Shown here one piece after another: positions 4,835 through 21,075 of a stretch of 21,075 nucleotides of DNA. This stretch comes from a virus. The stretch is from positions 1-21,075 of the IMG/VR virus record IMGVR_UViG_3300032326_001159; one strand, 5' to 3'. The first letter of the stretch is position 1. Each line of letters opens with the position of its first letter. Both the position numbers and the translations under genes were made by a program. Under the pieces are notes generated by a model, which worked only from the letters and a program-made list of their open reading frames with translations, ran no database searches and was not told the origin of the DNA.

Positions 4835-4835
4835 T

Positions 4836-5738: not shown

Positions 5739-5770
5739 ACCATTTCACCAATCACCAAAACCTAATCTAT

Positions 5771-5778
5771 CTAAATAT
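5771..5778 (+). promoter_or_regulatory. T4-type late promoter octamer (CTAAATAT)
   Basis: CTAAATAT lies in the 94-base gap between the virion block and the tailoring operon, about 55 bases before the next ATG. It is the same core as at 4821. Together with the sigma70-type promoter just downstream it would allow the operon to be read both early and late. The assignment rests on motif resemblance only. Confidence 0.4.
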
Positions 5779-5787
5779 CAACAGCAG

Positions 5788-5816
5788 TTGACTTTTGGCT
5801 GAAAATCTTATATAAT
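5788..5816 (+). promoter_or_regulatory. Near-consensus sigma70-type promoter upstream of the tailoring operon
   Basis: TTGACT (5788-5793) and TATAAT (5811-5816) are separated by 17 bases, i.e. 11 of 12 consensus positions with ideal spacing. A transcription start near 5823 would put the AGGAG at 5824-5828 at the very 5' end of the mRNA, with the ATG at 5833 only about ten bases in. It is the only such promoter I found in the gaps, and it heads the glycosyltransferase/radical SAM operon rather than the virion genes. Host RNA polymerase could therefore read the operon without phage late factors. Confidence 0.7.
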
Positions 5817-5832
5817 TTCAACTAGGAGAATC

Positions 5833-6171: not shown

Positions 6172-6174
6172 GCC

Positions 6175-7871: not shown

Positions 7872-8433
7872 TTATATGTACGTGACATTTGATCCAGAAT
7901 CAGGAAAAATTTTAGGCTGTTCAGGTAGCAAAACCAACAACAGTCTGGCCATAGATACTGCTTTAGGTGAAAAATTTATCATGGGTGCAGAGTCCATACA
8001 CAAATACAAGGTGATATATCATAATGGTCAATATCAAATTCAAAAACATGGAGTGTTAAACCCCGTGGAAAACGTAATTCATTCTAAAAAAACTGAAATA
8101 ATCAATCAGAATATTTACAAAATTCCTAATAAAATTAAAACTCACAGTGGCATACAAATAAAATTGCATTTGAATCAAAACAAAATTGAATTTGTTGCGG
8201 ACAAAATATTCAAAAAAACTTTGGAGACCATAGTTTCCAAAGAAAACCATCGTACCCATAAGTTTTATTGTTGTAAACTCAACGATGCCACACAACTGAT
8301 TCAAACATTGGATCTAAATCTTTATGAATTACTTACTCAAGACAGTGTGCAGATCGATATGAATGCAAAAACAAACATGGACATTTACTGTAGAAAGATT
8401 TTTGATTACTCTATTGAAAGGATTTATGCATAA
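7855..8433 (+). CDS. Uncharacterised protein inside the glycosyltransferase block
   Basis: About 192 residues, of unrecognised family. It opens with MYVTFDPESGKILGCSGS shortly after the start, then alternates hydrophobic and Lys/Asn-rich stretches that predict mostly beta structure, ending in a C-terminal region with SVQIDMN and IYCRKIF. There is no signal peptide, membrane helix or catalytic motif I can name. Starts at 7855 (17-base overlap with the upstream gene) and 7876 (four bases after the upstream stop) are both possible, and neither has a Shine-Dalgarno; I keep 7855 tentatively. The downstream gene overlaps it by eight bases (ATGCATAA). The higher AT and Lys/Asn content sets it apart a little from its neighbours. 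It could be a virion-like or accessory protein, or a tailoring substrate. Confidence 0.6.
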   Translation: MNQTNNYMYVTFDPESGKILGCSGSKTNNSLAIDTALGEKFIMGAESIHKYKVIYHNGQYQIQKHGVLNPVENVIHSKKTEIINQNIYKIPNKIKTHSGIQIKLHLNQNKIEFVADKIFKKTLETIVSKENHRTHKFYCCKLNDATQLIQTLDLNLYELLTQDSVQIDMNAKTNMDIYCRKIFDYSIERIYA

Positions 8434-9334
8434 GATTGCTATCAAAGATTGTGATATTATATTTTTAAGTTATGATGAGCCCAATGCTGACAGAAATTAT
8501 GCAGATTTAAAAAGAAAAATACCTTGGGCTAAAAGAGTTCACGGCGTGGAAGGGTCAGATGCTGCACACAAAGCCTGTGCTGCTGTGTCTGACACAGAAT
8601 ATTTTTTAACTGTGGATGGAGACACACAAATAGATTCTAAATTTCTTAATGTTCAACTGGATCTCAACAGCATGGGCATGGATGATTCATACATCTTCAG
8701 CTGGTGTGGACATACCAATGTGAATGGATTGAAGTATGGCAATGGCAGTTTAAAGTTATGGACTAAAACTTTTGTGAATGAGATGAAAACACATGAAAAT
8801 TACTCTGGTAAGGATAACAATGAGATAGAATTTTGTTATTTTGATAAACTATTTCAATTCAATGAAAATTATTCTACCAGTTACATCAATAGCACACCCA
8901 AACAAGCATGGCGAGCTGGATTTAGAGAAGGCGTCAAAATGAGTTTGTACAAAAATTTTAAAATACAGTCGTTGGACCAACTGTGGTGGCAAAATTATCA
9001 TAGATTATTGATTTGGATGACTGTGGGTCAGGATGTGGAATATGGTATTTGGGCTATCGCGGGAGCCAGAGAAGGATGCTACAGAACACTTTGCACCACA
9101 TGGGATTTCAAACAAGTGAGAGATTTTAAAATTTTAGAACAATTATGGATCAGTACCAGCAACAATAATAGCATGAATGCACAGGATGTCAAACAAAAAT
9201 GTGTTTCTTTGGGCAAAATGATCAAAGAAAAATTCCAAATGGAATTTCCCACTGAACCATATGATGCAGAAAGCAGTGCATTTTTCAAAAAGGTATATAT
9301 TAATTCACCTAGAACTATTAGAAAGACCATATGA
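8426..9334 (+). CDS. GT-A-like glycosyltransferase of an unnamed phage family, copy 1
   Basis: The protein has 302 residues from the ATG at 8426, which gives an eight-base ATGCATAA overlap and has AAGGA just upstream. An in-frame ATG at 8363 would overlap the previous gene by 71 bases and is less likely. The sequence starts DIIFLSYDEPNADRNYADLK, then RVHGVEG, then YFLTVDGDTQID, where DGD (64-66) is the expected DxD of a GT-A fold. Further on are LKYGNGSLKLWTK, then W.AGFREGVK.S and RLLIWMTVG..VEYG.WAIAGA.EG. The same order of motifs is in the next gene, so this is one family. Known GT2-like enzymes share the early part; the C-terminal WAIAGA region is specific to this group. The substrate is unknown. 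Confidence 0.65.
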   Translation: MHKIAIKDCDIIFLSYDEPNADRNYADLKRKIPWAKRVHGVEGSDAAHKACAAVSDTEYFLTVDGDTQIDSKFLNVQLDLNSMGMDDSYIFSWCGHTNVNGLKYGNGSLKLWTKTFVNEMKTHENYSGKDNNEIEFCYFDKLFQFNENYSTSYINSTPKQAWRAGFREGVKMSLYKNFKIQSLDQLWWQNYHRLLIWMTVGQDVEYGIWAIAGAREGCYRTLCTTWDFKQVRDFKILEQLWISTSNNNSMNAQDVKQKCVSLGKMIKEKFQMEFPTEPYDAESSAFFKKVYINSPRTIRKTI

Positions 9335-10038
9335 TGTACGATATATTTTTTATCAGTTACAATGAACCCAACGCAGATCAAAATTATGCTCTGTTAAAAC
9401 AAAGATTTCCATTGGCACAAAGAGTTCACGGTGTAAAAGGCATTCAACAAGCACACATTAGAGCTGCCACGTTGAGTTTAACTCAAATGTTTTGGGTAGT
9501 GGACGGTGATGCTGTGGTTAAAGATGATTTTCAGTTTGATTATGAAGTGCCTGACAGAGACATGGATGCTGTGCATGTGTGGAGGAGTTCAAATCCCATC
9601 AACGAATTAGAATATGGTTACGGTGGAGTAAAATTATTGCCTAAAAAATTAACCATGCATATGGATCCTAACAGAATAGACATGACCACCAGCATATCCA
9701 ATAGATTTAGAGCCATGTACGAAGTATCCAACAGCACAGATTTCAACACAGATCCATTCAACACATGGAAAAGTGCTTTCAGAGAGTGTGTCAAACTCAG
9801 CAGCAAAGTGATTGATCGTCAAGTGGACAAAGAAACTGAAAAAAGATTATTGATCTGGTGCACAGTGGGTGCAGATCAACCATATGGAGAATATGCCATT
9901 GCTGGAGCACTGGCAGGCAGAGTGTATGGCACAGACAACAGAAGTAATTCAGATGCTTTAAGAATGATCAATAATTTTGAATGGTTGCGATTGGCGTTTG
10001 TGGGACAATTTCCATACATGGAGAAAGAAATATTATGA
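9331..10038 (+). CDS. GT-A-like glycosyltransferase of an unnamed phage family, copy 2
   Basis: A 235-residue paralogue of the preceding protein: DIFFISYNEPNADQNYALLK, RVHGVKG, MFWVVDGDAVV (DGD at 58-60), LEYGYGGVKLLPK, W.SAFRECVK.S, and RLLIWCTVGADQPYGEYAIAGA in the C-terminal third. It is about 65 residues shorter, mainly through loss of the C-terminal tail seen in copy 1 and shorter linkers. ATGATG gives two possible starts, 9331 (ATGA overlap with the upstream stop) and 9334. The next gene starts in its stop (ATGA at 10035-10038). The tandem copy makes a two-step or two-acceptor glycan reaction plausible, but that is inference. Confidence 0.65.
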   Translation: MMYDIFFISYNEPNADQNYALLKQRFPLAQRVHGVKGIQQAHIRAATLSLTQMFWVVDGDAVVKDDFQFDYEVPDRDMDAVHVWRSSNPINELEYGYGGVKLLPKKLTMHMDPNRIDMTTSISNRFRAMYEVSNSTDFNTDPFNTWKSAFRECVKLSSKVIDRQVDKETEKRLLIWCTVGADQPYGEYAIAGALAGRVYGTDNRSNSDALRMINNFEWLRLAFVGQFPYMEKEIL

Positions 10039-11036
10039 TAGATTCTAACATTCCATTTGATAAAATCATAAACTTTGGTCAACGCACCATGCTGGACAGC
10101 AAATTGTTTTCTGTGAGTTGGATCTTGGCTCGTTTTTGCAACTATGATTGTTCTTATTGCTGGCCTTATGCCAAAAGCAAACAGAAAGATCACAGACCAT
10201 TGTCAGTTTACACAGCAGTGGTGGATGAAATCAAGCGCCAGGCTAGACTGAATGGATTCACAGACTATCATTTCAGTTTTTCAGGTGGAGAACCCACTGC
10301 CTACAAAGATTTTTTACAATTGGTACAGCATTACAGTGCTGATTCTGCTCCAGAATATCAGAGTATTCACATGACCACTAACCTAAGTCCTTCAGAAAAA
10401 TGGTGGGAAAGATGGTTAGAAGCCACAAAATCATTAAACCGTCGCAGCATCACTGCAAGTTTTCATGCTGAATTTGCTGATGAACAAAAATTTGGAGATA
10501 AAATATTACTGTTGATGAAGAACAATGTGTTTGTCACAATCAATCAAGTGATGGTGCCTAATAGATTCACAGAATACTATGACAGGTGTGCAAGATTTAA
10601 TTCCAGAGGTATCAATGTCACACTCAAACCACAGAGTGATCCCACAGCAAGTTTTGTTGTTGAAGGTTATACTCCGGATCAACTGAATACTTTACAAACA
10701 GGTTTCCCTCAACGCATACAAGAAGGTGAAAATTACAAAAATTTATTTCAAATTGAAATGACGGATGCTCAAGGCAACAAGTATTACATGGATCAAGCAG
10801 AGAGATTTAATGCTTTTGGCTTTAATAAATTCAAAGGATGGCACTGTAATGCTGGATATCAAAGTTGTGTCATAAGAGAACCAGGTGGAGAAGTCAAAAG
10901 AAGTTACAGTTGTCATGATGAACCACTGGGCAGCATAGAACAAGGATTTAAACTGTTTGATAAACCAAGAATTTGCATAACTCCCACTTGTGTGAGTTCA
11001 GCAGATTCAAAAATTCCCAAGGCCAAACATGTATAG
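10035..11036 (+). CDS. Radical SAM enzyme with C-terminal auxiliary Fe-S cysteines
   Basis: The protein has 333 residues from the ATG at 10035, which overlaps the previous stop as ATGA. The longer frame from 9981 would run 58 bases into the upstream gene. CNYDCSYC places the cluster cysteines at 35, 39 and 42; FSGGEPT (GGEP at 84-87) is the SAM-amino-group motif. The C-terminus carries further cysteines at 271, 278, 293, 314 and 319 in a GWHCNAG ... RICITPTC arrangement. It resembles that of the genes at 13870, 14762 and 19623 but lacks the closing CxC they share. It should cleave SAM to a 5'-deoxyadenosyl radical in the cytoplasm and oxidise or rearrange an unknown substrate, with an auxiliary cluster likely at the C-terminus. 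It is first in a run of five radical SAM genes. Confidence 0.85.
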   Translation: MIDSNIPFDKIINFGQRTMLDSKLFSVSWILARFCNYDCSYCWPYAKSKQKDHRPLSVYTAVVDEIKRQARLNGFTDYHFSFSGGEPTAYKDFLQLVQHYSADSAPEYQSIHMTTNLSPSEKWWERWLEATKSLNRRSITASFHAEFADEQKFGDKILLLMKNNVFVTINQVMVPNRFTEYYDRCARFNSRGINVTLKPQSDPTASFVVEGYTPDQLNTLQTGFPQRIQEGENYKNLFQIEMTDAQGNKYYMDQAERFNAFGFNKFKGWHCNAGYQSCVIREPGGEVKRSYSCHDEPLGSIEQGFKLFDKPRICITPTCVSSADSKIPKAKHV

Positions 11037-12018
11037 ATATCAAGATATAAAAGATATTCATTTGGAAATCACCAGCAAGTGTCAAGCCCGATGTCCTATG
11101 TGTCCCAGAAGAATCAGTGGAGGACCATTGAATCCATTTATCAAACTGGATGAGATAACTTTGGATGTATTTAAAAAATGGTTTGAACTGGATTTTATAA
11201 AACAATTGGACAGTTTGTTTATGTGCGGTAATTTGGGAGATCCTATCATATCCAAAGACACATTGGAAATATATCAGTATTTGCGTGAAGCGAATCCCAA
11301 TATTAGATTGGCCATGCACACCAACGGCAGTGCTAGAGATCCAGAATGGTGGCAAAGATTGGCTCAATTGAAAGTGAAAGTAACATTTGGCATTGATGGC
11401 CTGGCTGATACTCATCATCTTTATAGGATCAGTACAGATTTTAACAAAATAATTGAAAATGCTCAAGCATTTATCTCAGCAGGTGGAGTGGCCAAATGGC
11501 ACATGCTGGTGTTTGCTCACAATGAACATCAGATTGAAGAAGCAAGAACTATGAGTAAACAAATGGGCTTTGTGGATTTTTCAATCAAACACACTTCTAG
11601 ATTCAAACAAGATTATCTGCAAGTGATTGATGATATGGGTAGACCCACACACAGAATTCAACCCACTCAAACCAGTTTGGACATGATTCCTTTGGCTGAA
11701 GCAGCACAAAAAGAAGTCAAACCACACATTGTTTGTAAGGCACAAAAATACAAACAGTTGTATGTGAGTGCGTGTGGCAATGTATCACCTTGCTGTTGGT
11801 TGGATATGGAATGGATACCTCCCATGCAAGAATCTAGAATAGATTACATGGAAAAAATTTCAGAATTTCCCAACTTGCATCGTAAAACATTGAAAGAAAT
11901 ATTTGACGGTGGATTTTTTTCAAAAATAGAAGCACAATGGAGTACAGTGGGATTGAAAGAATGCACCAAACAATGCGGTTCATTTGATAAACTAGGAGTA
12001 CAATTTGTTGAAAATTAA
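11029..12018 (+). CDS. Radical SAM / SPASM-domain enzyme
   Basis: The protein has 329 residues. LEITSKCQARCPMC gives the 4Fe-4S cysteines 18, 22 and 25; CGNLGDP (66-72) takes the place of GGEP; and HTNG and IDG motifs follow as in typical SPASM proteins. The C-terminal SPASM region has cysteines at 236, 249, 255, 256, 312 and 316 (VSPCCW, and KECTKQC near the end), enough for one or two auxiliary clusters. SPASM enzymes mostly modify peptides (anaerobic sulfatase maturases, RiPP maturases), but some act on sugars or other small molecules. It differs clearly from its radical SAM neighbours, so it is not a recent duplicate. It overlaps the upstream gene by eight bases (ATGTATAG) and the next by fourteen. 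Confidence 0.88.
   Translation: MYRYQDIKDIHLEITSKCQARCPMCPRRISGGPLNPFIKLDEITLDVFKKWFELDFIKQLDSLFMCGNLGDPIISKDTLEIYQYLREANPNIRLAMHTNGSARDPEWWQRLAQLKVKVTFGIDGLADTHHLYRISTDFNKIIENAQAFISAGGVAKWHMLVFAHNEHQIEEARTMSKQMGFVDFSIKHTSRFKQDYLQVIDDMGRPTHRIQPTQTSLDMIPLAEAAQKEVKPHIVCKAQKYKQLYVSACGNVSPCCWLDMEWIPPMQESRIDYMEKISEFPNLHRKTLKEIFDGGFFSKIEAQWSTVGLKECTKQCGSFDKLGVQFVEN
11994..11998 (+). promoter_or_regulatory. Shine-Dalgarno fixing a TTG start
   Basis: AGGAG lies six bases before TTG at 12005 (and nine before a second TTG at 12008), inside the end of the upstream radical SAM gene. No other start with a ribosome site exists nearby; the first in-frame ATG (12041) has none. It therefore supports a non-ATG start for the methyltransferase. 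Confidence 0.7.
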
Positions 12019-12619
12019 TATACAAGACGTTTTATTTTGGATGGATGCTATCAGACAATCTGATGATAGATATCGCACACTGGAAAGTTTTTGGAAAGGT
12101 CAAATCAACAGCAAAGTATGGTTGATTGAACAATTAAAAAAATTACCCAGAGCACACAGTATGGATATTTTAATTTGTGGTGGATGGTATGGAGTGATGG
12201 CCACACTTTTATTCAACAGTGATCTGTATGTGAACAAAATAACCAGCATGGACATAGACAGCAAGTGTGAAAACACAGCAAACACCATGAACAAACAGTA
12301 TGAAATCGCTGGAAGATTCCGTGCTGTCACTCAAGACATGATGACTTATAAAGATTATGATCGTTATGACATGATTATTAACACAGTGTGTGAGCATTTG
12401 ACAACAGAACAATACAATGAATGGTTGAATTTAATACCCAAAGACAAAATTATTGTGTTGCAAAGCAATGACTATGTGATTCCTGAACATGTGAATCCCA
12501 TGAAAGATTTAAATCAGTTTGTTTCACAAAGCAAACTGTATCCTATAATGGAACCCAGCGAATTACAAACAGAAAAATACAAAAGATTTATGATTATAGG
12601 AAAGAAAAATGAAAAATAA
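12005..12619 (+). CDS. Class I SAM-dependent methyltransferase-like protein
   Basis: The protein has 204 residues from TTG 12005. It is short for the family and has no separate substrate domain. The glycine-rich SAM loop is ILICGGWYG (55-63); the acidic end of strand 2 is SMDID (83-85); an aspartate after strand 3 is at VTQDMM (111); and strand 4 is YDMIINTVCEHL (121-132). That is a complete seven-strand Rossmann SAM site. The substrate is unknown. Lying between two radical SAM genes, it may methylate the same product or an intermediate. It overlaps the upstream gene by 14 bases and the next by 11, so its expression is tied to them. It could be a heteroatom (O/N) methyltransferase; nothing points to DNA methylation, since there is no DPPY/NPPY or ENV motif. 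Confidence 0.7.
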   Translation: MLKINIQDVLFWMDAIRQSDDRYRTLESFWKGQINSKVWLIEQLKKLPRAHSMDILICGGWYGVMATLLFNSDLYVNKITSMDIDSKCENTANTMNKQYEIAGRFRAVTQDMMTYKDYDRYDMIINTVCEHLTTEQYNEWLNLIPKDKIIVLQSNDYVIPEHVNPMKDLNQFVSQSKLYPIMEPSELQTEKYKRFMIIGKKNEK

Positions 12620-13877
12620 AAGTTGTACATTCTGCATGCATCCATTCACAGGATTGGCCACCAGAGAAGATGGTGCTATCAAGGTGTGTTGCAGAAGTTT
12701 ACCCATCAGTAACATACAAAATGAAACCATGGAACAAGCATGGAACAATGAAAAAATGCGTGAAGTGCGACGTCAGGTGTTGAACAATGAGCGACCTAAT
12801 GTGTGTGCACCTTGTTTTGATTTGGAAGATCAAGGAGTGCAAAGTTTGCGACAAAGACACATCAGTGACAATATTCCTGAATCAAGAATCAATCTTTATC
12901 CCACGGCTTTGGACAGTTTAAAAGAAGATTACACCATGCCTTTTGAATTGCCCACTATGGAAATCAAAATTAACAATTTGTGTAATTTAAAATGTCGTAT
13001 GTGTAATCCATTGGACAGCACACAATGGAAAGATTGGAACAGCATAGTGGATCATTACAAGAAAGAAGGCAATTACTTGGTCAAAGCAGTGGAAGATCTG
13101 GGCCTAACACAAGCACCACACGTGGATCTTTTCGAAAATAAACCACACTTTTGGGACAATTTAAAAAAACTTATTCCCTATTTTAAACGTGTGGAGTTTG
13201 CTGGTGGTGAACCTCTGATGGATCCCACACATTACAAAATATTAGACCTATTAAGCACCAATGGATCCAACATTGAAATCAAATATGCCACCAATGGCAC
13301 AGTGTTGGGAATCAAAGGTGGAAGAACCATACAAGACTACTGGCCTAAATTTAAAAGTGTGGCAGTGAATGTGAGCATTGACGGAATCTTTGACACTTAT
13401 GAATATATCCGAGGCAATGGCAAGTTTATGGATGTGGTCAACAACATAAAAATAATGAAACAAATACCCTCTGTGAGTAGAATAGTGGGAGCATTCACAG
13501 TGCAAGCCAACAATATCATGCAAATAGATCGTGTGATTGATTACTTTTTAAATGATCTAGGCATTGTGTTTTACAGTCACAGAGTAAACTATCCCCGAGC
13601 ATTGAGTGCTCAAGTGTTGCCAGCAAAATTAAAAAATCAAGTGATAGACAAACTGGAAGCAATGAAATCTAGAATAAAAGATTATACATTGGTCAAACAA
13701 CATCCAATATTGGAAAAAATTACTCTACAACAGATTCAAGACAACATTAATTTTTTAAAAGCCAAAGATCTTAACCAATACTGGATGGATTGTGTGGATT
13801 TTAATCGCAGATTAGATGCCACAAGAAATCAAGGACCTTTTGAAAAAATAAATCCGGAGTTTGCTGATTATGTTTAA
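12609..13877 (+). CDS. N-terminal-twitch radical SAM protein, copy 1
   Basis: The protein has 422 residues. An N-terminal cysteine-rich domain (CTFCMHPFTGLATREDG, then VCCRS, then CAPCFDLED; Cys 6, 9, 27, 28, 66 and 69) is the twitch-like auxiliary-cluster domain placed ahead of the barrel. It is followed by the radical SAM core: NNLCNLKCRMC (125, 129, 132) and FAGGEPL (GGEP 199-202). A ~67-residue insertion separates these two motifs, compared with 35-45 in most neighbours. The C-terminus ends with CVDF..RLDATR......INPEF, a pattern echoed in the minus-strand paralogue at 16358-17776. A good TAGGAAAG precedes the ATG. The N-terminal-twitch group is known mainly from phages and bacteria without an assigned reaction; I infer none. 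Confidence 0.85.
   Translation: MKNKSCTFCMHPFTGLATREDGAIKVCCRSLPISNIQNETMEQAWNNEKMREVRRQVLNNERPNVCAPCFDLEDQGVQSLRQRHISDNIPESRINLYPTALDSLKEDYTMPFELPTMEIKINNLCNLKCRMCNPLDSTQWKDWNSIVDHYKKEGNYLVKAVEDLGLTQAPHVDLFENKPHFWDNLKKLIPYFKRVEFAGGEPLMDPTHYKILDLLSTNGSNIEIKYATNGTVLGIKGGRTIQDYWPKFKSVAVNVSIDGIFDTYEYIRGNGKFMDVVNNIKIMKQIPSVSRIVGAFTVQANNIMQIDRVIDYFLNDLGIVFYSHRVNYPRALSAQVLPAKLKNQVIDKLEAMKSRIKDYTLVKQHPILEKITLQQIQDNINFLKAKDLNQYWMDCVDFNRRLDATRNQGPFEKINPEFADYV
13856..13859 (+). promoter_or_regulatory. Ribosome site favouring the 13870 start
   Basis: GGAG is ten bases before ATG 13870 and only one base before TTG 13861, so it selects the ATG. That start also gives an eight-base ATGTTTAA overlap like other junctions in this operon. 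Confidence 0.5.
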
Positions 13878-14772
13878 AGTGGAACACTTGTATCCTCATA
13901 TTAGAAACAGTGTCAAAGTGGAATGGAATCTTGGCAAAAGATGCAATTTGGATTGCAGTTATTGCCCAGCAGAAATACATGACAATCACAGTGAACACAC
14001 AGATATAGAGATATTGAAAAGCACTGTGGACACATTGAGCACCATACCCAATGTGAGAATCAGTTTGACTGGCGGTGAACCTTGTGTGCATCCAGACATA
14101 GAACAGTTGTTACAACATGCCAAAAATAAAATCAGTTGGATCAACATCACCACCAATGGTACCAGAACTGTGGAATTCTACCAAAATATTTTGGAAAATT
14201 ATATCAATCACATTGTGTTCAGTGTGCATTTGGAATCTGATTGGTTGAAGGTCATAAACACAATTATCAAGGTTTATAAGCAGTCTGCCAACAAAAATGT
14301 TCTAGTGCATATGATGATGCTGCCAGGGCGTTTAAAAGACGTTAAAGACGCTTGTGAGGCTCTTTTAGATGCGGGCATACGCTATGCATTGAGACCTATA
14401 CGCTGGACCAAAACACATGATGATTTTGAAGACATGATTCATTACAGTGAAGAAGAAAAAGAATTTTTGGCAGTGAGCAATCACACACCACCAAAAAATA
14501 CTCTCATAGACAACACAGTAGAATGCAATGTGAATGATTTGTTGATCAATAAAACCAATCAATTTCTAGGATGGAGTTGTATGGCTGGAGTGGAAAGTCT
14601 TATGATCAATTGGGATGGCGAAGTTCATCGAGCCACTTGTAGAGTGGGTGGCAGTTTGGGCAACATCTATCAAGGCACTTTTGCAAAACCCACAGATCCC
14701 ATTGATTGTACTCGCAAATGGTGCACTTGTGCTGCAGACATAAACATAACCAAGTTGAACAATGCTGATTGA
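13870..14772 (+). CDS. Radical SAM enzyme with C-terminal CxxxxCxC auxiliary motif
   Basis: The protein has 300 residues. VEWNLGKRCNLDCSYC holds the cluster cysteines 25, 29 and 32, and LTGGEPC the GGEP (68-71). TTNGTR and FSVHLE follow as expected strands of the barrel. The C-terminus has GWSCMAG (Cys 237), CRVGGSLGN (257), and DCTRKWCTCAAD (280, 285, 287). The spacing C-x(~20)-C-x(~22)-CxxxxCxC is shared with the genes at 14762 and 19623, which marks a subfamily with a C-terminal auxiliary cluster. It is compact for a radical SAM plus twitch/SPASM-like protein. It is translationally coupled to its neighbours on both sides (8- and 11-base overlaps). The substrate is unknown. Confidence 0.87.
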   Translation: MFKVEHLYPHIRNSVKVEWNLGKRCNLDCSYCPAEIHDNHSEHTDIEILKSTVDTLSTIPNVRISLTGGEPCVHPDIEQLLQHAKNKISWINITTNGTRTVEFYQNILENYINHIVFSVHLESDWLKVINTIIKVYKQSANKNVLVHMMMLPGRLKDVKDACEALLDAGIRYALRPIRWTKTHDDFEDMIHYSEEEKEFLAVSNHTPPKNTLIDNTVECNVNDLLINKTNQFLGWSCMAGVESLMINWDGEVHRATCRVGGSLGNIYQGTFAKPTDPIDCTRKWCTCAADINITKLNNAD

Positions 14773-15742
14773 AAAAATAGATTATAAATTTAAAGAATTC
14801 AATCGTGTGCTGCAGATTGAATGGACTTTGGGTAACACTTGCAATTACAATTGTTCATACTGCCTGCCCATACTGCACAACAATAGTTTTCCTTGGATAA
14901 ACTTGGATGAAAGCAAAACGTTCATAGACAAACTACACAATCATTACAGCAAATTAGGAATCACAGATTACATTTGGAAATTTGGCGGTGGAGAACCCAC
15001 ACTGTACAAAGATTTTGCCGAGTTGTGTACTTACATAAATTCCAAATCCAACAATTATATCATACCCATTACCAATGGCAGTAGAAAACTGCATTGGTGG
15101 CAGGAGCATGCTAAAAACTTTTTTGCTGTGCATTTCAGCATTCATCCAGAATTTGCGGATCCCAATCACATTGTGGCAGTGTGTGACAATTTGATAGAAC
15201 AAAAAATCGACAGCATCTGTCATGTGATGATGAAACCTAACGATTGGAATAAATGTTTGGAAATAATAGAAGTTTTAAAAAACAGTAAACACAAACAATG
15301 GGGCATACAAGCCAAACCTTTACATCACACTTGGGAATCAGACACTGTAGAAGAAAGAGATTTATATCCTTACACTGCAGAACAAAAACAAATTTTTCAA
15401 GCTCCTATCAGAGCACAAAGCAGAATCAGTCCAAGAGTGGATTCCAAATTGAACAGAGACATGTACATGATCACTGAGGAAGGCATCAAAGATTTTGATC
15501 CTTATTGGGCAGTCACTCATGACATTGTGGACTGGAGTGGTTTCAAATGCGATGCAGGCATCAATAGAATATATATAAACTATGACAAACGCATGTATTT
15601 GGGAGCAGGGTGTAGAGTTGAGTTGAATAACTTTGTGGGAAAAAAATACAATGAAAGTTTTGAATTTCCCACCCAATCAATCATTTGTAATCAAAGGAGA
15701 TGTGTATGTATCGCGGACGTGCAGGTGCCCAAAAGCAGATAG
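14762..15742 (+). CDS. Radical SAM enzyme with C-terminal CxxxxCxC auxiliary motif
   Basis: The protein has 326 residues. IEWTLGNTCNYNCSYC gives Cys 27, 31 and 34; KFGGGEPT has GGEP at 76-79; ITNGSRKLHWW and FSIHPEFADP are barrel motifs also found, slightly altered, in the genes at 10035 and 19623 (SFHAEFAD; SCHHEKVD). The C-terminal cysteines are 263, 284, 309, 314 and 316, ending in ICNQRRCVCIADVQVPK. This gene is the closest in plan to the minus-strand radical SAM gene at 18577-19623, so the two may be old duplicates on opposite strands. It overlaps its upstream neighbour by 11 bases and the SGNH-like gene by 37. Confidence 0.87.
   Translation: MLIEKIDYKFKEFNRVLQIEWTLGNTCNYNCSYCLPILHNNSFPWINLDESKTFIDKLHNHYSKLGITDYIWKFGGGEPTLYKDFAELCTYINSKSNNYIIPITNGSRKLHWWQEHAKNFFAVHFSIHPEFADPNHIVAVCDNLIEQKIDSICHVMMKPNDWNKCLEIIEVLKNSKHKQWGIQAKPLHHTWESDTVEERDLYPYTAEQKQIFQAPIRAQSRISPRVDSKLNRDMYMITEEGIKDFDPYWAVTHDIVDWSGFKCDAGINRIYINYDKRMYLGAGCRVELNNFVGKKYNESFEFPTQSIICNQRRCVCIADVQVPKSR
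15694..15699 (+). promoter_or_regulatory. Shine-Dalgarno selecting the 15706 start
   Basis: AAGGAG abuts ATG 15700 directly and lies six bases before ATG 15706. Correct spacing therefore picks the second ATG. Confidence 0.6.
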
Positions 15743-16392
15743 GATTTTTTGGAGATAGTTTTTGTTCCTATGCTGAAAAACACAACTGGATGGGACAACT
15801 GGCAGATCATTTTGATAGCAAAATTGTTCACAATGGAGTGGGGGGTTCCAGCTATTGGACCACAGTGATAGATTACACAAAAAACTTTGATCAATACAAA
15901 AATTTAGATTACACAGTGTTTTGCTGGACTGAACCTTACAGAATATATCATCACAAAGGAGATTTCACAGGTCCTAAAGCATATAAAAAAGACGATCCTA
16001 GATATAAGGCAGCACAGATGTACATAGAACATCTGCGTGATTGGAACAAAGAAAGAATGGAATTCACAGCCACAGCATATTGGTTGGATCATGAATATCT
16101 CAGCAAAGTATCTGGAAAAATTATACACCTTTGGAGTTTTGGAGACATACGCATACATGATTGGCCCAAAGCAGAATTAAAAGACATTAAATTTTTACAT
16201 GATTGGAAACACGGAGTGGAGATGCGTACACCTTTGTTCTATATCAGTTGTAGAACAGATTCCTTTAGACACAAATTTGAAAATCACTGGTTGAATGATA
16301 TATTTCATTTCACAGTGAATCACATGGGACCAGAAGGTGATGCCTGGGTGTTTAAGGCTATAAAAGATGTGCTAACTCAGGAAAAATTTTAG
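15706..16392 (+). CDS. SGNH/GDSL-hydrolase-like protein
   Basis: The protein has 228 residues. IGFFGDSFCSY (GDS at 16-18) is block I with the nucleophile Ser18. HNGVGGSS (42-48) supplies the block II glycine, and CWTEPYR (73-79) sits where block III oxyanion residues are expected, with no clear asparagine. Near the end, NDIFHFTVNHMGPEG offers a DxxH at 198-201 or His206 for the catalytic dyad. There is no signal peptide, so it acts in the cytoplasm or is carried in the virion. SGNH enzymes remove or transfer acyl groups on sugars, peptides or lipids; here it fits glycan or peptide acyl editing alongside glycosyltransferases. It closes the plus-strand operon and its last 35 bases overlap the end of the minus-strand gene. 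Confidence 0.65.
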   Translation: MYRGRAGAQKQIGFFGDSFCSYAEKHNWMGQLADHFDSKIVHNGVGGSSYWTTVIDYTKNFDQYKNLDYTVFCWTEPYRIYHHKGDFTGPKAYKKDDPRYKAAQMYIEHLRDWNKERMEFTATAYWLDHEYLSKVSGKIIHLWSFGDIRIHDWPKAELKDIKFLHDWKHGVEMRTPLFYISCRTDSFRHKFENHWLNDIFHFTVNHMGPEGDAWVFKAIKDVLTQEKF

Positions 16393-17776
16393 CAGCACTC
16401 AATCCTCTGATAGCGTCCAATTTATTCACGTACTCTTTGAATCCAGGCAGCAGTCTAGAATTATCTTTGGCTTCCATGTGTAGTAACACTGCCTCCCAGC
16501 GTCTCCAACCATAAGGATTTGTTTTCCAGAAATTATCATCCTGTCTATAATTTTGCCACAACCAATCTTTAAAATCCATAAACAATTCTCTTATTTGTTG
16601 TTTGTCTTCTTGAGGTAATATTTGTATGCTTAAAAAAGTTGGTATGTATAATAAATGCATGTTGACCAATCCACCACCCATTTGTACTCCACCAGGCACT
16701 GTGCCCACATTTAATTTTTTAAATCCGCTCTGTATTTTCCATTTCATAAAATCAGGCAAGTGTTTGATATTAAAAATTTGTATGGCAGTGGCCAAACTCA
16801 CTTGTATGTTGTCAGGAGTGTTATCCAACATGTGTAAATTCTTTTCCACTGTGGCCCATTGTGTGGGAAAACGTATGTATTCATCACGCTGATGTGTGGC
16901 ATCCATGCTCACAGCAAATTTAACTTTTTTAAATTTACTCCATAACTGGATTAAATCTTCATCCACTAATATGCCATTGGAATTGTAACGCAGCAATATG
17001 CGATCTTGATAACCTTGACGTATGATTTCTTCAATAAATGTTTTATGCTCTTTGATCATCAGTGGTTCACCACCAGCAAAATAAACCTGTTTGAGATTGG
17101 GTATCTGACGATACATCTCCTGCCAGAATGTATCTTTTTCATGCCAGAAGTTGTTGAATTCTTTGCGATCCCATTGAATTTGATCTTTGACTTCTTTGTT
17201 TTGTAATTGTGGCATCAATTGTTGCCAGTCATTCACCCATTTGCTGCTGTCGTGTGGAGAACACATCACACATTTGATATTGCAAGTGTGTCCCAAACGC
17301 AGATCCAAATACAATAATTTTTCAGGCACGGTGCCATCTTCTTTGGTTTGACGTATCAGTTCAGGCACATCCACACCATCTCGATACCAAGTGCCAGTCT
17401 CCCAAATTCTTTTACTGACCACACCCACACGTTCTTCATCAAAACACTTGCGACAACTGGCAGGTATCTCTCCTTTCAGCATAGTGGTACGCACACTTTT
17501 CATATAATCATTGTTCCAAGCACTCATGGGAGTATCCACGCCAAAGTTGGCAGGTGTACCATCTTCTTTTTTAATAATACCCACTGTGTGATCAGATCCA
17601 GCACCACTGGCATTGGCTGAACAACACAGCCTCATATCACCATTGGGTCTGGTGGCAAAATGTATCCAAGGCAATATACAATAGGTAGGTGTGCCTGTGA
17701 CAGATTCTATTTCTCTCTGCCATTTGCCCAGTTGTGAGTCTTCTGGATTCATCCAATATTCATTATGATCTGACAC
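16358..17776 (-). CDS. N-terminal-twitch radical SAM protein, copy 2
   Basis: The protein has 472 residues from a GTG start. The N-terminal cysteine domain has CILPWIHFATRPNGD, LCCSA and ASCRKCFDEE (Cys 33, 51, 52, 108 and 111). The radical SAM core follows: GHTCNIKCVMC (165, 169, 172) and YFAGGEPL (GGEP 235-238), with a ~63-residue insertion between them. YNSNG and VSMDA are barrel motifs. The C-terminus ends LDAIRGLSAAKIFPEL, matching the LDATR...INPEF end of the plus-strand copy at 12609. It also has a Gly-rich loop (GGVQMGGGLVNMH) that I cannot place. It is last in the minus-strand operon, overlapping the PP-loop gene by 14 bases. The substrate is unknown. Confidence 0.85.
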   Translation of the reverse strand: MSDHNEYWMNPEDSQLGKWQREIESVTGTPTYCILPWIHFATRPNGDMRLCCSANASGAGSDHTVGIIKKEDGTPANFGVDTPMSAWNNDYMKSVRTTMLKGEIPASCRKCFDEERVGVVSKRIWETGTWYRDGVDVPELIRQTKEDGTVPEKLLYLDLRLGHTCNIKCVMCSPHDSSKWVNDWQQLMPQLQNKEVKDQIQWDRKEFNNFWHEKDTFWQEMYRQIPNLKQVYFAGGEPLMIKEHKTFIEEIIRQGYQDRILLRYNSNGILVDEDLIQLWSKFKKVKFAVSMDATHQRDEYIRFPTQWATVEKNLHMLDNTPDNIQVSLATAIQIFNIKHLPDFMKWKIQSGFKKLNVGTVPGGVQMGGGLVNMHLLYIPTFLSIQILPQEDKQQIRELFMDFKDWLWQNYRQDDNFWKTNPYGWRRWEAVLLHMEAKDNSRLLPGFKEYVNKLDAIRGLSAAKIFPELAHLL

Positions 17777-18584
17777 TGTCTACTCCCCATTGTCGCTCTT
17801 GACACCAAAAGCATTTTCCACACACAGGCACGGGCTGCCCTGGCACATAAGTCCTGTAGTCCAAGTCTCCAAAGATTTCAGGTGATGTGTCACGGTCACC
17901 TTCACAACTGCGAGTGAGATTGAATAGGTCCATTATGCCTAATTTTTTGTATTGGGCAACTATCCAATTTTTCTGCACATAAGTGAAAGGGTGACAAGCA
18001 TAGCCGCCCATGTGTGCTTTGATTAATCTATCCAACACTGTGTCAGACAATGTGTCGAGCAACACATCTCTGTCAGTGAGACGATGATCAAATTCTTTAT
18101 CAGGATTTTTGGTTACTCCACAGTACCAAGCATCTAATTTTTTTGTGTGAGCCACATATTCAGCATGTGCTCTTAACTCTATTTGATTACCACTCTTTAA
18201 TCTACCGTATTCATCCACAATGGTAGGTCCCTTTGATCCCCATTCTAATTCAGGAGCAATGAAATTTTCGTGTCTTTTAAATTTTATGCTTTTAAATTCA
18301 TCAGTCAACCAATCATAAACTTCCATACTGTTGTGACGTTGCCAAGGTCTAGTTTTCCAACATCTAACATTGGTAATAATATGCACAGTGATATTCAATT
18401 GATTTTTTACAATTAAATCGCACAGCAGATATGCCATTAGAGCACTGTCAGCACCACCACTCACACTGACGCCAATATTTTTCCATTGTCTGGACAAAGG
18501 AAAATACACATCATCAATGAGATGCAGTATGTTTTTGAACACACTGGTTTCGTAAATTGTTTTTAATTGTGCTGTGTTACTCAT
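17763..18584 (-). CDS. QueC-like PP-loop ATPase with Cys4 zinc site
   Basis: The protein has 273 residues from the ATG at 18584, which forms an eight-base ATGAGTAA overlap with the upstream stop; longer in-frame starts would run into that gene. NIGVSVSGGADSALMAYLL contains the SGGxDS PP-loop (42-47) that adenylates a carboxyl or carbonyl group. The C-terminus has RSCEG (Cys 227) and CGKCFWCQER (255, 258, 261). This matches the zinc-binding tail of QueC (preQ0 synthase; there CGxCxxC after an earlier Cys), although the first gap is longer here. A middle block (GRLKSGNQIELRAHAEYVA; KAHMGGYACHPF) is not typical of QueC. It may activate a carboxylate for amide or nitrile formation, but the substrate need not be a deazaguanine. 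No QueD-like gene is visible. Confidence 0.75.
   Translation of the reverse strand: MSNTAQLKTIYETSVFKNILHLIDDVYFPLSRQWKNIGVSVSGGADSALMAYLLCDLIVKNQLNITVHIITNVRCWKTRPWQRHNSMEVYDWLTDEFKSIKFKRHENFIAPELEWGSKGPTIVDEYGRLKSGNQIELRAHAEYVAHTKKLDAWYCGVTKNPDKEFDHRLTDRDVLLDTLSDTVLDRLIKAHMGGYACHPFTYVQKNWIVAQYKKLGIMDLFNLTRSCEGDRDTSPEIFGDLDYRTYVPGQPVPVCGKCFWCQERQWGVDSVRS
17783..17788 (-). promoter_or_regulatory. Shine-Dalgarno fixing a GTG start
   Basis: GGGGAG on the minus strand is six bases upstream of GTG at 17776, within the end of the PP-loop gene. It supports the non-ATG start of the twitch radical SAM gene. Confidence 0.7.
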
Positions 18585-19623
18585 AAATTTTTTTATTACA
18601 GTTGATTTCGGGTTGACATTTGCAACGTTCTCTTTCGCAGATTGTGGGCACAATATCAGGGTAAAAGTTATCAGTAAAATCATGGTTAAACAGATTGAAT
18701 GAACGATTCAAATTATAAAGACGATTGCCACAAGAACCTTTGATTAATCCATGCTTGTCGATCTGTATGGTGTCCACACCCACGTTACATTGCCATCCTT
18801 TAAAATTGTTCATACCATTCAATGAAAGATAATTTTGCAATACTCTTTTCTTTTTCTTATTGTTAAAATGCAATGTGGGAGTGGAATTAAATTTTTCAAA
18901 TCTTCTTTTTTTCCAGTTAAACAGTTCAAAAAATGATGGATTTCTTTTGTTACAATCACTGAGATATTTCTTTTGTTCTTCATTGTAATTTACGGTGCTG
19001 TGATAAATTTCTAATACATTTATGGCCCATTTTTTTCGGCTGGATTTTAACTGCTCCACTATGGCCACACATTTATCCCAAGCATGTGGATCCATCAGCA
19101 CGTTGGCATCCACGCTGACTCCTTTTTTGTACAACAGATCTGCCACAGCAACAATATGTGGCACGTCCACTTTTTCATGATGACAGCTCAGCATCACAAT
19201 GTCATTGTAATGACCATATTCTTCCCACCATCTCAGTGTGCGTGATCCATTGGTGCTCATGCTAATCAAACAGTTGAATTGTTCTTTAAAATATTTGGTA
19301 AATTCTCCAAAATCTTTCCATATGGTGGGCTCGCCTCCTATGAGGTGCAGATAGAAATCTTTTTTGCCGACATTTTTTTTGTAATGTTCAATGAGATGAG
19401 AAAGATTCTTTTTGATCAATTCAAGATCAGGCCAACCGTGTGTGCCTTCATTGGATCCTGGAAAACAATACCAGCACTTGTAGTTGCATCTGTTGCTGAG
19501 GAATAATTCTATCCTAAAACTATCTTTTTTTTGGTTGCTCTGTATCCTGATTAACTGTTCAGATGATTGGCCAGCATTGGCTGATGATTCATCACTGGAA
19601 TTTGACTGCTCGAAATTGGACAT
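18577..19623 (-). CDS. Radical SAM enzyme with C-terminal CxxxxCxC auxiliary motif
   Basis: The protein has 348 residues from the ATG at 19623, chosen because a late-type promoter octamer lies at 19637-19644, between it and the ATG at 19662. The first ~30 residues are a Ser/Asn/Gln-rich, probably disordered tail that sister enzymes lack. CNYKCWYC gives Cys 46, 50 and 53; IGGEPT gives GGEP 96-99; MSTNGSRTLRWW and LSCHHE follow. The C-terminal cysteines 279, 298, 329, 334 and 336 end in CERERCKCQPE, the same CxxxxCxC as in the plus-strand genes at 13870 and 14762. There is an extra Cys342. It is first in the minus-strand operon and should share its transcript with the PP-loop gene, so the two may act on one substrate. 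Confidence 0.85.
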   Translation of the reverse strand: MSNFEQSNSSDESSANAGQSSEQLIRIQSNQKKDSFRIELFLSNRCNYKCWYCFPGSNEGTHGWPDLELIKKNLSHLIEHYKKNVGKKDFYLHLIGGEPTIWKDFGEFTKYFKEQFNCLISMSTNGSRTLRWWEEYGHYNDIVMLSCHHEKVDVPHIVAVADLLYKKGVSVDANVLMDPHAWDKCVAIVEQLKSSRKKWAINVLEIYHSTVNYNEEQKKYLSDCNKRNPSFFELFNWKKRRFEKFNSTPTLHFNNKKKKRVLQNYLSLNGMNNFKGWQCNVGVDTIQIDKHGLIKGSCGNRLYNLNRSFNLFNHDFTDNFYPDIVPTICERERCKCQPEINCNKKIYE

Positions 19624-19636
19624 AGTATGGACTGAG

Positions 19637-19644
19637 TATTTATC
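19637..19644 (-). promoter_or_regulatory. T4-type late promoter octamer for the minus-strand operon
   Basis: On the minus strand this reads GATAAATA, 13 bases before the ATG at 19623 and identical to the octamer at 3310. The wider context is ACGATAAATAC, one base different from the plus-strand motif at 19671-19681. Confidence 0.6.
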
Positions 19645-19672
19645 GTAATTAACTGCCCACATAATTTTTCAC

Positions 19673-19680
19673 GATAAGTA
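19673..19680 (+). promoter_or_regulatory. Late-type promoter octamer (GATAAGTA), divergent
   Basis: GATAAGTA within ACGATAAGTAC (19671-19681) repeats the minus-strand motif ACGATAAATAC with one change, and points at the ATG at 19686 five bases on. A transcript from it would be near-leaderless. The weaker sixth base makes this less certain than its partner. Confidence 0.4.
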
Positions 19681-19685
19681 CAGCT

Positions 19686-20357
19686 ATGCTTGACCAAATT
19701 AATATCACATGTTCAGCCAAAGAAATTTTTAACAGTTTGCCAATTTTGGATTTACCAAAAACTCAATTGAACGAACCCACTGGAGATTTTTTCTATGATG
19801 CTTGGCAGTTAAAAACAGAATTCAAAAAACAACCTATTGTGGATCTGTTTGCTCAATTGGGATCTGTGGGTGAAGCAAGAATAATTGTGTTGGAACCAGG
19901 CGAGAGTTATTGTGCTCATGCTGACATAGATGATCGATATCATTTGACACTGCAAGGTGAACACAGTTATCTGTATGATTTAAAAAATTTAAAAATGTAC
20001 CCCACTGAAGTGGACAACACAGTGTATCTTATGGACGCAGGACGCATACATTCTGCAGCTAATCTAGGTTATAAGTCACGCATTCAATTGGTCATAAGAA
20101 AGTTATTGAACAAAGTTGAATTAAAAGATCCTTGTGCTGTTAAAATCACAGTGAACAATCCACCATACAATTTAAGATATTTGTTTGATCATAGTTTTTC
20201 CATAGTTTTAAATAGATTAAACAAGCAAGGATGCATAAACAAATTTAAAAAAATTTCTGAAACTGAAATCAGTTTTGAAATAGAACGCACTCATTTGCCA
20301 CAAGTGAACAAAGTAGTAGACATTTGCGGATTTGATATAAAGGTTAGTTATGATTGA
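19686..20357 (+). CDS. Asp/Asn beta-hydroxylase-like 2-oxoglutarate Fe(II) oxygenase
   Basis: The protein has 223 residues. ARIIVLEPGESYCAHADIDDRYHLTLQG contains the HxD pair (His78, Asp80) followed by RYH (84-86). GRIHSAANLG has the distal His122, and SRIQLVIR gives an Arg (132) for the 2-oxoglutarate carboxylate. This order, H-x-D with RYH a few residues on, is that of the aspartyl/asparaginyl beta-hydroxylase family, which hydroxylates side chains of proteins or peptides. The C-terminal ~80 residues (from about 145) are an extra domain with no motif I recognise. No signal peptide or membrane segment is seen. It is the first gene after the divergent promoter pair and overlaps the next by eight bases (ATGATTGA). 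Confidence 0.7.
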   Translation: MLDQINITCSAKEIFNSLPILDLPKTQLNEPTGDFFYDAWQLKTEFKKQPIVDLFAQLGSVGEARIIVLEPGESYCAHADIDDRYHLTLQGEHSYLYDLKNLKMYPTEVDNTVYLMDAGRIHSAANLGYKSRIQLVIRKLLNKVELKDPCAVKITVNNPPYNLRYLFDHSFSIVLNRLNKQGCINKFKKISETEISFEIERTHLPQVNKVVDICGFDIKVSYD

Positions 20358-20985
20358 ACATTGGAATAATTTTTATAAACATGAACTGGGCACACTAGCT
20401 GTGGCTAATATGGTATATGAGCCATTGATCAATCCTAACAAAGATATATTTAGGATGAATTTTAACAGTAATCAATATTTTATTAATCCCAATATGACTG
20501 ATGATCTTAGACAAAATTGGTTTTCAAGAGAAATTAATTATATAGAAAAATTAAAAAATAAACCATATGCCCCTGAAATTTTAAACATTGATCACAGAAA
20601 TAGAACGATCGAATTCAAATGGTATGATCGTAGTTTAAGTAAATTCATACACACTGGTGAAATATCCGCAGTTTCCAACTGGCAACAACAGATCAAAGAT
20701 ATTTTGTCAGATTTATTGTCACAAAATATACACAAATCTAATTTGTACCCACACACGTTTTATTTGGATAACAACAACAAAGTTCGCATAATGGATCTTT
20801 ACGGTTGCACCTGTGACGAAGACAGATATGTGTCTAAAGAATTATTAAAATCTATATTATTTGATCCCAATCATCCTAGATTTGCTCAAAGTCTCACAGG
20901 TGAACTGTACGACACTTTTAAATTGTATGAATTAACTGTAAAAATGAATTATGGCAATTGGCCAGGAGATTTTTTAAATGCTTGA
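20350..20985 (+). CDS. Small protein-kinase-fold-like protein
   Basis: The protein has 211 residues. WFSREINYIEKL (57-68) resembles the alphaC segment with its glutamate, and TIEFKWYDRSLSKFI (86-100) resembles a hinge. NIHKSNLYPHTFYLD (126-140) is in the place of the HxDxxxxN catalytic loop, and VRIMDLYG (145-152) in that of DFG. The catalytic Asp of the loop is replaced by Lys/Ser, so it may be inactive or use altered chemistry. The fold call is by pattern only; a choline/aminoglycoside-kinase-like small kinase is the nearest idea. AAAGG six bases upstream supports the ATG. It is coupled to the oxygenase before it and the next gene (8-base overlaps). Confidence 0.4.
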   Translation: MIEHWNNFYKHELGTLAVANMVYEPLINPNKDIFRMNFNSNQYFINPNMTDDLRQNWFSREINYIEKLKNKPYAPEILNIDHRNRTIEFKWYDRSLSKFIHTGEISAVSNWQQQIKDILSDLLSQNIHKSNLYPHTFYLDNNNKVRIMDLYGCTCDEDRYVSKELLKSILFDPNHPRFAQSLTGELYDTFKLYELTVKMNYGNWPGDFLNA

Positions 20986-21075
20986 ATACGTGGGTAATTG
21001 CAAAGATTTGATTGATTGGCACAGTGTTATAAAAAGCATTGAAGATCAACAGAGTGCTTACATAGGACCAAGACA
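20978..21075 (+). CDS. Start of an unknown gene, 3'-truncated by the window edge
   Basis: An open frame starts at the ATG at 20978, overlapping the upstream stop by eight bases (ATGCTTGA), with AGGAG at 20964-20968 nine bases before it. Only 32 codons are visible (beginning MLEYVGNCKDLIDWHSV), too few to assign a family. It extends the plus-strand operon beyond the window. Confidence 0.65.
   Translation, partial: MLEYVGNCKDLIDWHSVIKSIEDQQSAYIGPR

Follow-up and report, generated by a model that had tools for sequence, protein, structure and literature searches.

What does a virus do with seven radical S-adenosylmethionine (radical SAM) enzymes encoded in one cluster? The question is raised by the IMG/VR virus record IMGVR_UViG_3300032326_001159, all 21,075 bases of which were analysed and are called here the window. 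The seven genes lie within positions 10035-19623, and together with a set of partner enzymes they belong to a cassette that recurs in related viral loci, is kept under rearrangement and may serve to build an unusual glycoconjugate.

Seven radical SAM enzymes

The seven genes, named R1 to R7 in order of position (Table 1), are all open and encode radical SAM proteins. Each exceeds the curated cut-off of PF04055 (38.8-60.2 against 29.5 bits), and a search of the entire record with this family returned exactly these seven. The CxxxCxxC motif is found in all of them and GGEP in six, R2 having CGNLGDP. Only R3 and R6 pass the 170-bit cut-off of NF033640, the family of radical SAM proteins with an N-terminal twitch domain, and both match it over nearly the full length; R1, R2, R4, R5 and R7 are all below the cut-off. 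The SPASM family PF13186 (cut-off 21.5 bits) matches R2 at the C-terminus (22.4 bits) and R3 at the N-terminus (32.1 bits), with R6 under the cut-off at 19.3 bits. R1, R4, R5 and R7 are mutual paralogues (23-29% identity) with C-terminal cysteines, which are conserved among the homologues of R1, R4 and R7 and were read by eye in R5. An earlier note, made from the sequence alone, had described seven intact genes with these motifs and sorted them into a SPASM protein, a twitch pair and a group of four, and the family searches and translations agree with it in all of these respects. As for gene starts, ATG codons are available from 9981 for R1 and at 19662 for R7, 10035 and 19623 being more likely.

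The limits 10035-19623 given in the note do enclose all the radical SAM genes but not the whole unit, which extends to about 20985, and the operon appears to start near 5833. From 5833 a run of packed or overlapping plus-strand genes is followed by a minus-strand group (16358-19623) and by two plus-strand genes reaching to 20985. A profile of R6 searched against PDB sequences gave no match (E up to 0.01). For R4 the matches, at E 6e-8 or weaker, include viperin, YydG, MoaA and BtrN and do not point to a particular substrate.

Linkage and conservation of the cassette

Related viral loci were gathered via the PP-loop protein encoded between R6 and R7 (49 loci), via R6 (285 stretches, 80 of which were kept) and via the divergent R6 of locus L048 (69 loci). 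Among the 80 and the 69, 42 loci, called here fully flanked, extend 9.9 kb beyond R6 in either direction; the others have shorter flanks or a cut R6. The same loci recur between samples, and the 42 comprise 32 distinct R6 proteins. We define the core six as R1, R2, R3, R4, R6 and the methyltransferase-like gene at 12005. With family-calling score thresholds that we set ourselves, all six are present in 40 of the 42 fully flanked loci, or in 31 of 32 once identical R6 proteins are merged (counts for each gene in Table 1), and the number of radical SAM homologues per locus ranges from 5 to 10. The count anchored on the PP-loop gene took in 31 of the 49 PP-loop loci.

Sixty loci with a full core and distinct R6 proteins display 15 arrangements of eight genes, some of which are told apart only by a missing or truncated gene; reduced by hand, they give seven orders of the core six, strand flips included. 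Because the core is ordered in so many ways, its linkage is more than a lack of rearrangement. In addition, for each of the 15 pairs among the core six, the correlation between protein distance matrices (0.29-0.82) surpasses the largest value from 500 permutations, and shared phage ancestry accounts for part of this correlation.

Of 538 distinct complete homologues of R1-R7, 537 retain the CxxxCxxC motif, in a count that leaves out weaker homologues; the exception is R7 of locus L083, one of 78 R7 homologues. The median ratio of nonsynonymous to synonymous substitution rates (dN/dS), calculated against the window sequence only and for pairs of 60-99% identity with finite dS, is lowest for R6 (0.055) and R3 (0.062), followed by R1, R2 and R4 (0.105-0.134) and the PP-loop protein (0.171). 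Motif retention and low dN/dS indicate that the cassette enzymes are under selection to work, and by its linkage the set is a real conserved unit, which also holds the PP-loop, beta-hydroxylase-like, kinase-like and GT-A-fold proteins. The active use that had been read from the retained motifs of the window is thus upheld by the homologues, and the proposed check, co-occurrence of the set among phages, came out in favour of linkage. The observations named in advance as speaking against the earlier interpretation, homologues occurring singly elsewhere and loss of CxxxCxxC in relatives, are nearly absent: one R7 homologue lacks the motif, and other contexts gave only distant family members (in Vibrio phage K566, a bacterial NF033640 gene in L140 and a PP-loop gene in L147). 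The viral contig L147 was found with a distant PP-loop query, and no other cassette gene was detected on it; this contig speaks against the idea that distant relatives of the PP-loop protein are strictly linked to the set.

Partner enzymes

The PP-loop protein, whose true start is likely 18584, where its homologues begin, was modelled from 20 sequences (predicted local distance difference test, pLDDT, 77.2). The fold matched TilS-type 1ni5 (Z 13.5), LarE (Z 11.7), Cap9 (Z 11.0) and Bacillus subtilis QueC 3bl5 (Z 11.7, 170 aligned residues, root-mean-square deviation 3.8, residues 34-266 spanned). Since TilS and others score equally or higher, QueC is not singled out by the fold alone. Of 68 distinct homologues, 66 have SGGxDS, and the cysteine preceding CxxCxxC is 27 residues away in 37 of the 68 and 20 residues away in 31; the zinc motif of QueC is C-x8-CxxCxxC (PMC13329287). 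The window protein matched no Pfam family at E 0.01, and so not PF06508 (QueC), and the PDB profile search gave NAD synthetase only (E 0.82).

For the 19686 protein the profile matched the PDB beta-hydroxylase 7v4f (E 2.6e-15). PF05118 was found in 13 of 16 members of its family (best E 4.6e-5; 0.035 for the window protein itself), and H78, D80, H122 and R132 are invariant in all 16. The 20350 protein is weakly kinase-like: it had no useful Pfam match, and its best profile match (E 0.0044) was 8unk, a bifunctional tRNA threonylcarbamoyladenosine biosynthesis protein whose kinase domain is presumably of the Bud32 type. In the 12005 family, Methyltransf_25 was matched by five of 16 members (best E 0.011) and Spermine_synth by three (best 0.0046), all below confidence.

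The AlphaFold2 model of the 9331 protein (pLDDT 90.1) has a GT-A fold over residues 1-137, with Z scores up to 11.8, the top match being B4GALNT1 (135 residues aligned, root-mean-square deviation 2.6). D57 and D59 are invariant in 17 of 17 homologues, and the PDB profile search (E up to 1) gave no match. The protein is a probable glycosyltransferase, a transferase and a nucleotidyltransferase being left unseparated by the fold alone.

Promoter motifs and timing

At the border between virion-type genes and the cassette operon stands TTGACT-17-TATAAT (5788-5816), one of the two best-scoring sites of region 4700-21075, in which sigma-70-type sites total 55 and are not above shuffles (62.8). The homologous boundary has a motif at the same position and with the same 17-nt spacer in two related loci (TTGACA-17-TATAAT in L217 and TTGACT-17-TATAAT in L066). 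Because a sigma-70-type motif precedes the operon in three divergent phages, we suggest that the host polymerase would read it separately from the late virion genes, and the cassette is probably expressed early. In 3.08 Mb of loci, which are partly redundant, 67 near-consensus sites with spacers of 16-18 were counted against 11-19 in five base shuffles that ignore dinucleotides. In ten other loci the -10 box of such a motif ends 5-6 bases ahead of the ATG of the 9331-type gene, and in L171, L179 and L185 the same is seen ahead of other genes (Table 1), as if these phages gave leaderless early mRNAs. Sites resembling the late T4 promoter consensus TATAAATA number 30 in the window with at most one mismatch, 28 being expected by chance.

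Carriers and distribution

The T4-type portal family PF07230 was matched on eight of 20 related records, the window's own record not being among them: seven matches score 367-386 bits and the eighth is a 24-bit fragment at a contig end, the 12 records without a match all being possible fragments. These matches mark the carriers as T4-like phages; the related records all come from uncultured viruses, and most of them are fragmentary. A search for the T4 neck protein PF11649, which could have placed the cassette in the genome, had no match anywhere and is uninformative. Matches to PF04055 number 6 to 16 on each of ten long records and 1 to 11 on each of sixteen others. The 186-kb record G317 (loci L160, L217 and L218) has 16, of which 14 are over the cut-off; 14 of the 16 lie inside 37 kb (122,438-159,694). 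For comparison, 12 are reported for CPt10 and for a TARA genome (PMC2853527, PMC5332604).

Searches of cultured phages gave no match for R1, none for the 9331 protein (E up to 1e-5) and none for the PP-loop protein (E up to 0.01); R2, R3, R4 and R6 had only distant ones (24-29% identity). Bacterial genome contigs scanned with the PP-loop alignment gave one locus, L057, on a contig that is phage-like by eye and binned in a Muricauda metagenome-assembled genome. It holds (L057:4-20557) a distant reduced set of methyltransferase-like, twitch-type radical SAM (NF033640, 271 bits), CGNLGDP radical SAM, PP-loop and kinase-like genes, and additionally a B12-binding radical SAM gene and a class IV aminotransferase gene; its PP-loop protein served as the query that found L147. 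In the phylum of this genome, the only one searched, NF033640 was over the cut-off in two of 296 genomes, one of them being the Muricauda genome itself and the other giving the 3.7-kb stretch L140, which has a methyltransferase-like gene by eye.

Comparison with known phages and systems

Phages with many radical SAM genes are known already. CP220 and CPt10, two Campylobacter phages with a distant relationship to T4 (PMC3322345), have 11 and 12 radical SAM proteins, respectively, with an interchangeable module of five (Timms, 2010, PMC2853527). The uncultured T4-like genome TARA_ERS488813_N000010 has 12 such genes (Nishimura, 2017, PMC5332604), and the host-recognition islands in the structural region of pelagimyophages carry glycosyltransferases and radical SAM cassettes, and are non-syntenic (Zaragoza-Solas, 2020, PMC7029224). 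The density that the earlier note had called unusual for a virus is therefore not new in itself. The interpretation in the note is supported in part, for active use and linkage but not for the density, and the partner enzymes had been left out of it.

Similarly to the window, CP220 has a cluster of radical SAM genes that also contains two genes annotated with nucleotide-diphospho-sugar transferase domains, and CP220/CPt10 have an R2-like protein (24% identity). R2 was, however, the only one matched there among R1, R2, R3, R4, R6, the PP-loop and the 9331 proteins, and the CP220 cluster carries a putative glycine amidinotransferase. In the TARA genome the radical SAM genes were read as Fe-S cluster supply or metabolism, and the accessible text describes no cassette or pathway (PMC5332604). 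The isolate Mosig EXVC030M (MT647606) has, between tail fibre genes and VrlC, an island similar to those of the pelagimyophages, with MoaA-like, Asp_Arg_Hydrox, aminotransferase, carbamoyltransferase and epimerase genes; one R2-like match was found (26%), with R1, 9331 and PP-loop unmatched. The cultured Vibrio phage K566 has distant relatives of R6 (26%) and R3 (24%) among two GT8 genes over the cut-off, and in the ten genes scanned three radical SAM genes are over the cut-off and one below, but R1 and the PP-loop protein had no match. With the QueC family (QueC, Cap9 and QatC) the PP-loop protein of the cassette shares the fold, SGGxDS and a C-terminal CxxCxxC; it differs in lacking a PF06508 match and in a cysteine spacing of 27 or 20 instead of 8 (PMC13329287). 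No description of the present fixed set was found in full-text searches of open-licence papers. Thus the many radical SAM genes are known, and the cassette, its partners and its conservation look new.

What the cassette may make

The substrate is where the neighbours of the cassette are informative. In 32 of the 42 fully flanked loci there is a homologue of the putative glycosyltransferases (25 loci), a nucleotide-sugar epimerase (8 loci) or both. In L171 and L186 the operon itself includes the epimerase, flanked by the methyltransferase-like gene on one side and the kinase-like gene on the other, and that of L171 matches UDP-glucose 4-epimerase 4zrm (E 6.8e-28). R1 of L201 is immediately preceded by two sugar genes, one UDP-glucose-dehydrogenase-like (E 3e-14) and the other an epimerase (E 1.6e-22). 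On G317 virion-type genes (by eye) come first; after them stand two putative glycosyltransferases that match no Pfam family, an epimerase of PF01370 (128 bits), a gene judged by eye to be GT-A-like and then radical SAM genes. The neighbouring GT8 genes in K566, the sugar-transferase-type genes in the CP220 cluster and the glycosyltransferases of the pelagimyophage islands (PMC7029224) point the same way, as does the GT-A fold of the 9331 protein. From these neighbours we infer a sugar substrate, and the explanation that we prefer, at roughly even confidence, is that the window holds most of a biosynthetic cassette that T4-like phages conserve, and that this cassette serves to synthesise or modify an unusual surface glycan or glycoconjugate, whether of the infected cell or of the virion.

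The order of steps, product, timing and benefit would be as follows. Host RNA polymerase would transcribe the operon from its own sigma-70-type promoter. The glycosyltransferase-like proteins, helped in some relatives by epimerases and the UDP-glucose-dehydrogenase-like enzyme, would supply and place sugars, and five or more radical SAM enzymes with auxiliary clusters would perform C-H chemistry, that is, oxidation, epimerisation or bond formation, on the sugar carbons or on an appended group. The QueC-like PP-loop ATPase might adenylate a carboxylate and so lead to an amide, and the beta-hydroxylase-like, methyltransferase-like and kinase-like proteins would complete the product. The likely benefit would be a receptor altered so as to exclude other phages, or a change in virion binding. 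A bolder form, which we put forward only tentatively, is a pathway preserved across wide divergence and at least seven gene orders, in which successive reactions of five or more radical SAM enzymes, together with those of a QueC-related ligase, a beta-hydroxylase and sugar transferases, yield a chemically new glycoconjugate, made early and rebuilding the surface of the infected cell. We know of no precedent for viral multistep radical biosynthesis of such a kind. Phages with many radical SAM genes have been noted since 2010, and the accessible parts of that literature give no tested function (PMC2853527, PMC5332604, PMC7029224). A fixed core with named partners, linked through rearrangement, turns a curious gene list into a testable pathway, and the definition of the cassette yields a minimal gene set, conserved residues and a product class to look for. 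If the preferred explanation is true, viruses run complex oxygen-sensitive radical chemistry in infected cells, which would bear on host range and superinfection wherever such phages occur.

Several observations weigh against a glycan product. Ten of the 42 fully flanked loci gave neither a glycosyltransferase homologue nor an epimerase with the probes used here. No more than 25 of the 42 retain the 9331 protein, which therefore stands outside the strict core, and its fold is matched at about Z 10.5 by the nucleotidyltransferases IspD and MobA as well. The putative glycosyltransferases 6175 and 7023 had no informative library match. SPASM and twitch radical SAM enzymes, beta-hydroxylases and protein-kinase-like folds have peptides as often as sugars as their substrates.

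Because several of the partner folds also act on proteins, post-translational modification of one protein remains a serious rival, although on balance we consider it unlikely. The target would most probably be a tail fibre or other virion protein encoded upstream, or else a host protein, and a single polypeptide would undergo radical crosslinks or epimerisations, hydroxylation of aspartate or asparagine, phosphorylation, PP-loop-driven conjugation and O-glycosylation. SPASM and twitch enzymes often act on peptides, the 19686 protein is beta-hydroxylase-like and the 20350 protein weakly protein-kinase-like. Cap9 is among the fold matches of the PP-loop protein, polypeptide GalNAc-transferases and SunS/ThuS are among those of the GT-A protein, and tail-type genes immediately precede the cassette in the window and, as judged by eye, in L217. 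Between 10035 and 20985, however, genes overlap or nearly touch and leave no space for the precursor gene of a ribosomally synthesized and post-translationally modified peptide, a result covering the cassette interior only. The sugar enzymes in or beside the operon of some relatives, the sigma-70-type motif before the operon in three phages and the chance level of T4-late-type sites also speak against a modified protein. A hypervariable island, loosely assembled from metabolic genes that were gained one by one and share no pathway, would account for the coming and going of R5, R7, the SGNH gene, the gene at 8429 and extra radical SAM genes, and published host-recognition islands are indeed non-syntenic (PMC7029224). 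It fits poorly with a core found together in 40 of 42 loci across seven orders and with distance matrices that beat every permutation in all 15 pairs, even if shared ancestry explains part of the latter, and we regard it as very unlikely.

Two further explanations place the product among nucleobases or nucleotides. That the product is a modified nucleobase or nucleoside, or else a small molecule, as in 7-deazaguanine modification of DNA with the PP-loop protein acting as QueC, is in our judgement improbable. Most of the PP-loop protein can be aligned with QueC, and it has both SGGxDS and CxxCxxC. The QueD family PF01242 is found on five of ten long records (G316, G018, G320, G321 and G014), and for three of these (G316, G321 and G014) the fetched locus also includes the PP-loop gene. 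Against this, G018 and G320 have QueD but no PP-loop gene in the fetched locus, and G317, G318, G319, G019 and G020 have the PP-loop gene and no QueD match, all of these records being fragments. PF06508 was matched in none of 13 records and PF01702 in none of ten, with positive controls, keeping in mind that phage DpdA may escape PF01702 and that records may be fragments. The cysteine spacing of C-x27 or C-x20 likewise departs from the C-x8 of QueC (PMC13329287). The canonical queuosine/deazaguanine pathway was thus rejected, there being no match to the QueC or TGT families in the records searched despite QueD in five of ten. As an observation in its own right, the QueD-family gene of those five records stands without a PF06508 or PF01702 match on the same record. 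Scarcely credible, finally, is that viperin-like enzymes make chain-terminating ddh-nucleotides against competitors. The N-terminal halves of R1, R4, R5 and R7 match viperin models, R4 best (54.3 bits; 59 with PADLOC), but all are far under the curated cut-off of 180 bits of NF038283 and the R4 match ends near residue 120. The C-terminal cysteine clusters would be superfluous, and one product would not need several unlike copies. With partial matches only, identity with viperin was rejected.

Layout of the record

In the first 4.8 kb of the record lie a tail-collar gene and two others with matches to virion or tail families. The gene at 4836 had no match, and tRNA and Rfam scans of the 21,075 bases gave no match. 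The features are listed in Table 1.

Table 1. Features of the window, and sigma-70-type motifs in related loci
Feature	Position	Strand	Fully flanked loci (of 42)	Evidence and remarks
Virion/tail-type genes (one is tail-collar)	2-1105, 1105-3309, 3339-4775			Library matches
Sigma-70-type promoter motif, TTGACT-17-TATAAT	5788-5816	+		11/12 consensus positions; border of virion-type genes and cassette operon
Small protein, 112 aa	5833-6171	+		First gene after promoter; homologues in L066 (57%) and L107 (24%)
Putative glycosyltransferase	6175-7026	+		29% identity to paralogue 7023-7871; type by eye; no Pfam or PHROG match
Putative glycosyltransferase	7023-7871	+		phrog_1903 match (function unknown); DADM motif, type by eye; no Pfam match
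GT-A-like protein	8363-9334	+		37% identity to paralogue 9331-10038
GT-A-fold protein, probable glycosyltransferase	9331-10038	+	25	AlphaFold2 model
R1, radical SAM, C-terminal cysteine tail	10035-11036	+	40	PF04055 51.6 bits
R2, radical SAM/SPASM	11029-12018	+	42	CGNLGDP replacing GGEP; PF04055 49.2, SPASM 22.4 bits
Class I methyltransferase-like protein (weak evidence)	12005-12619	+	42	Sub-confident profile matches
R3, radical SAM, N-terminal twitch/SPASM	12609-13877	+	42	NF033640 320 bits, SPASM 32.1 bits
R4, radical SAM, C-terminal cysteine tail	13870-14772	+	42	CTRxWCTCAADI; PF04055 60.2 bits
R5, radical SAM paralogue, accessory	14762-15742	+	2	PF04055 38.8 bits
SGNH-like hydrolase, accessory	15700-16392	+	6	GDSF motif by eye; no family match
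R6, radical SAM, N-terminal twitch	16358-17776	-		NF033640 387 bits; slowest-evolving core member
QueC-like PP-loop ATPase	17763-18584	-	34	SGGADS; C-x27-CxxCxxC; phrog_1550 (QueC-like) 24.1 bits
R7, radical SAM paralogue, C-terminal cysteine tail	18577-19623	-	29 (R7-type)	PF04055 48.4 bits
Aspartyl/asparaginyl beta-hydroxylase-like protein	19686-20357	+	42	HxD...H...R; PDB 7v4f and PF05118 matches
Kinase-like protein (weak evidence)	20350-20985	+	33	Profile best match 8unk
Near-consensus sigma-70 motif before 9331-type gene				L106, L110, L112, L113, L120, L126, L128, L130, L131, L157
Near-consensus sigma-70 motif before other genes				L171, L179, L185

Two minor observations concern the relatives. 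In L102 (about 7149-9407, G018:C1:54238-56496) the R2 frame lies inside a stop-free stretch of 988 codons running through the overlapping R1 gene, with a twitch-like match upstream; the stretch may be coding or due to chance. Small proteins that begin with an I(I/S)DWDxVI-like motif form a family, seen by eye, whose genes adjoin the cassette in L160 (18991-20116), L153, L163, L171, L178, L186, L198 and L201, and in several of the loci with such genes a cold-shock-like gene is seen by eye alongside.

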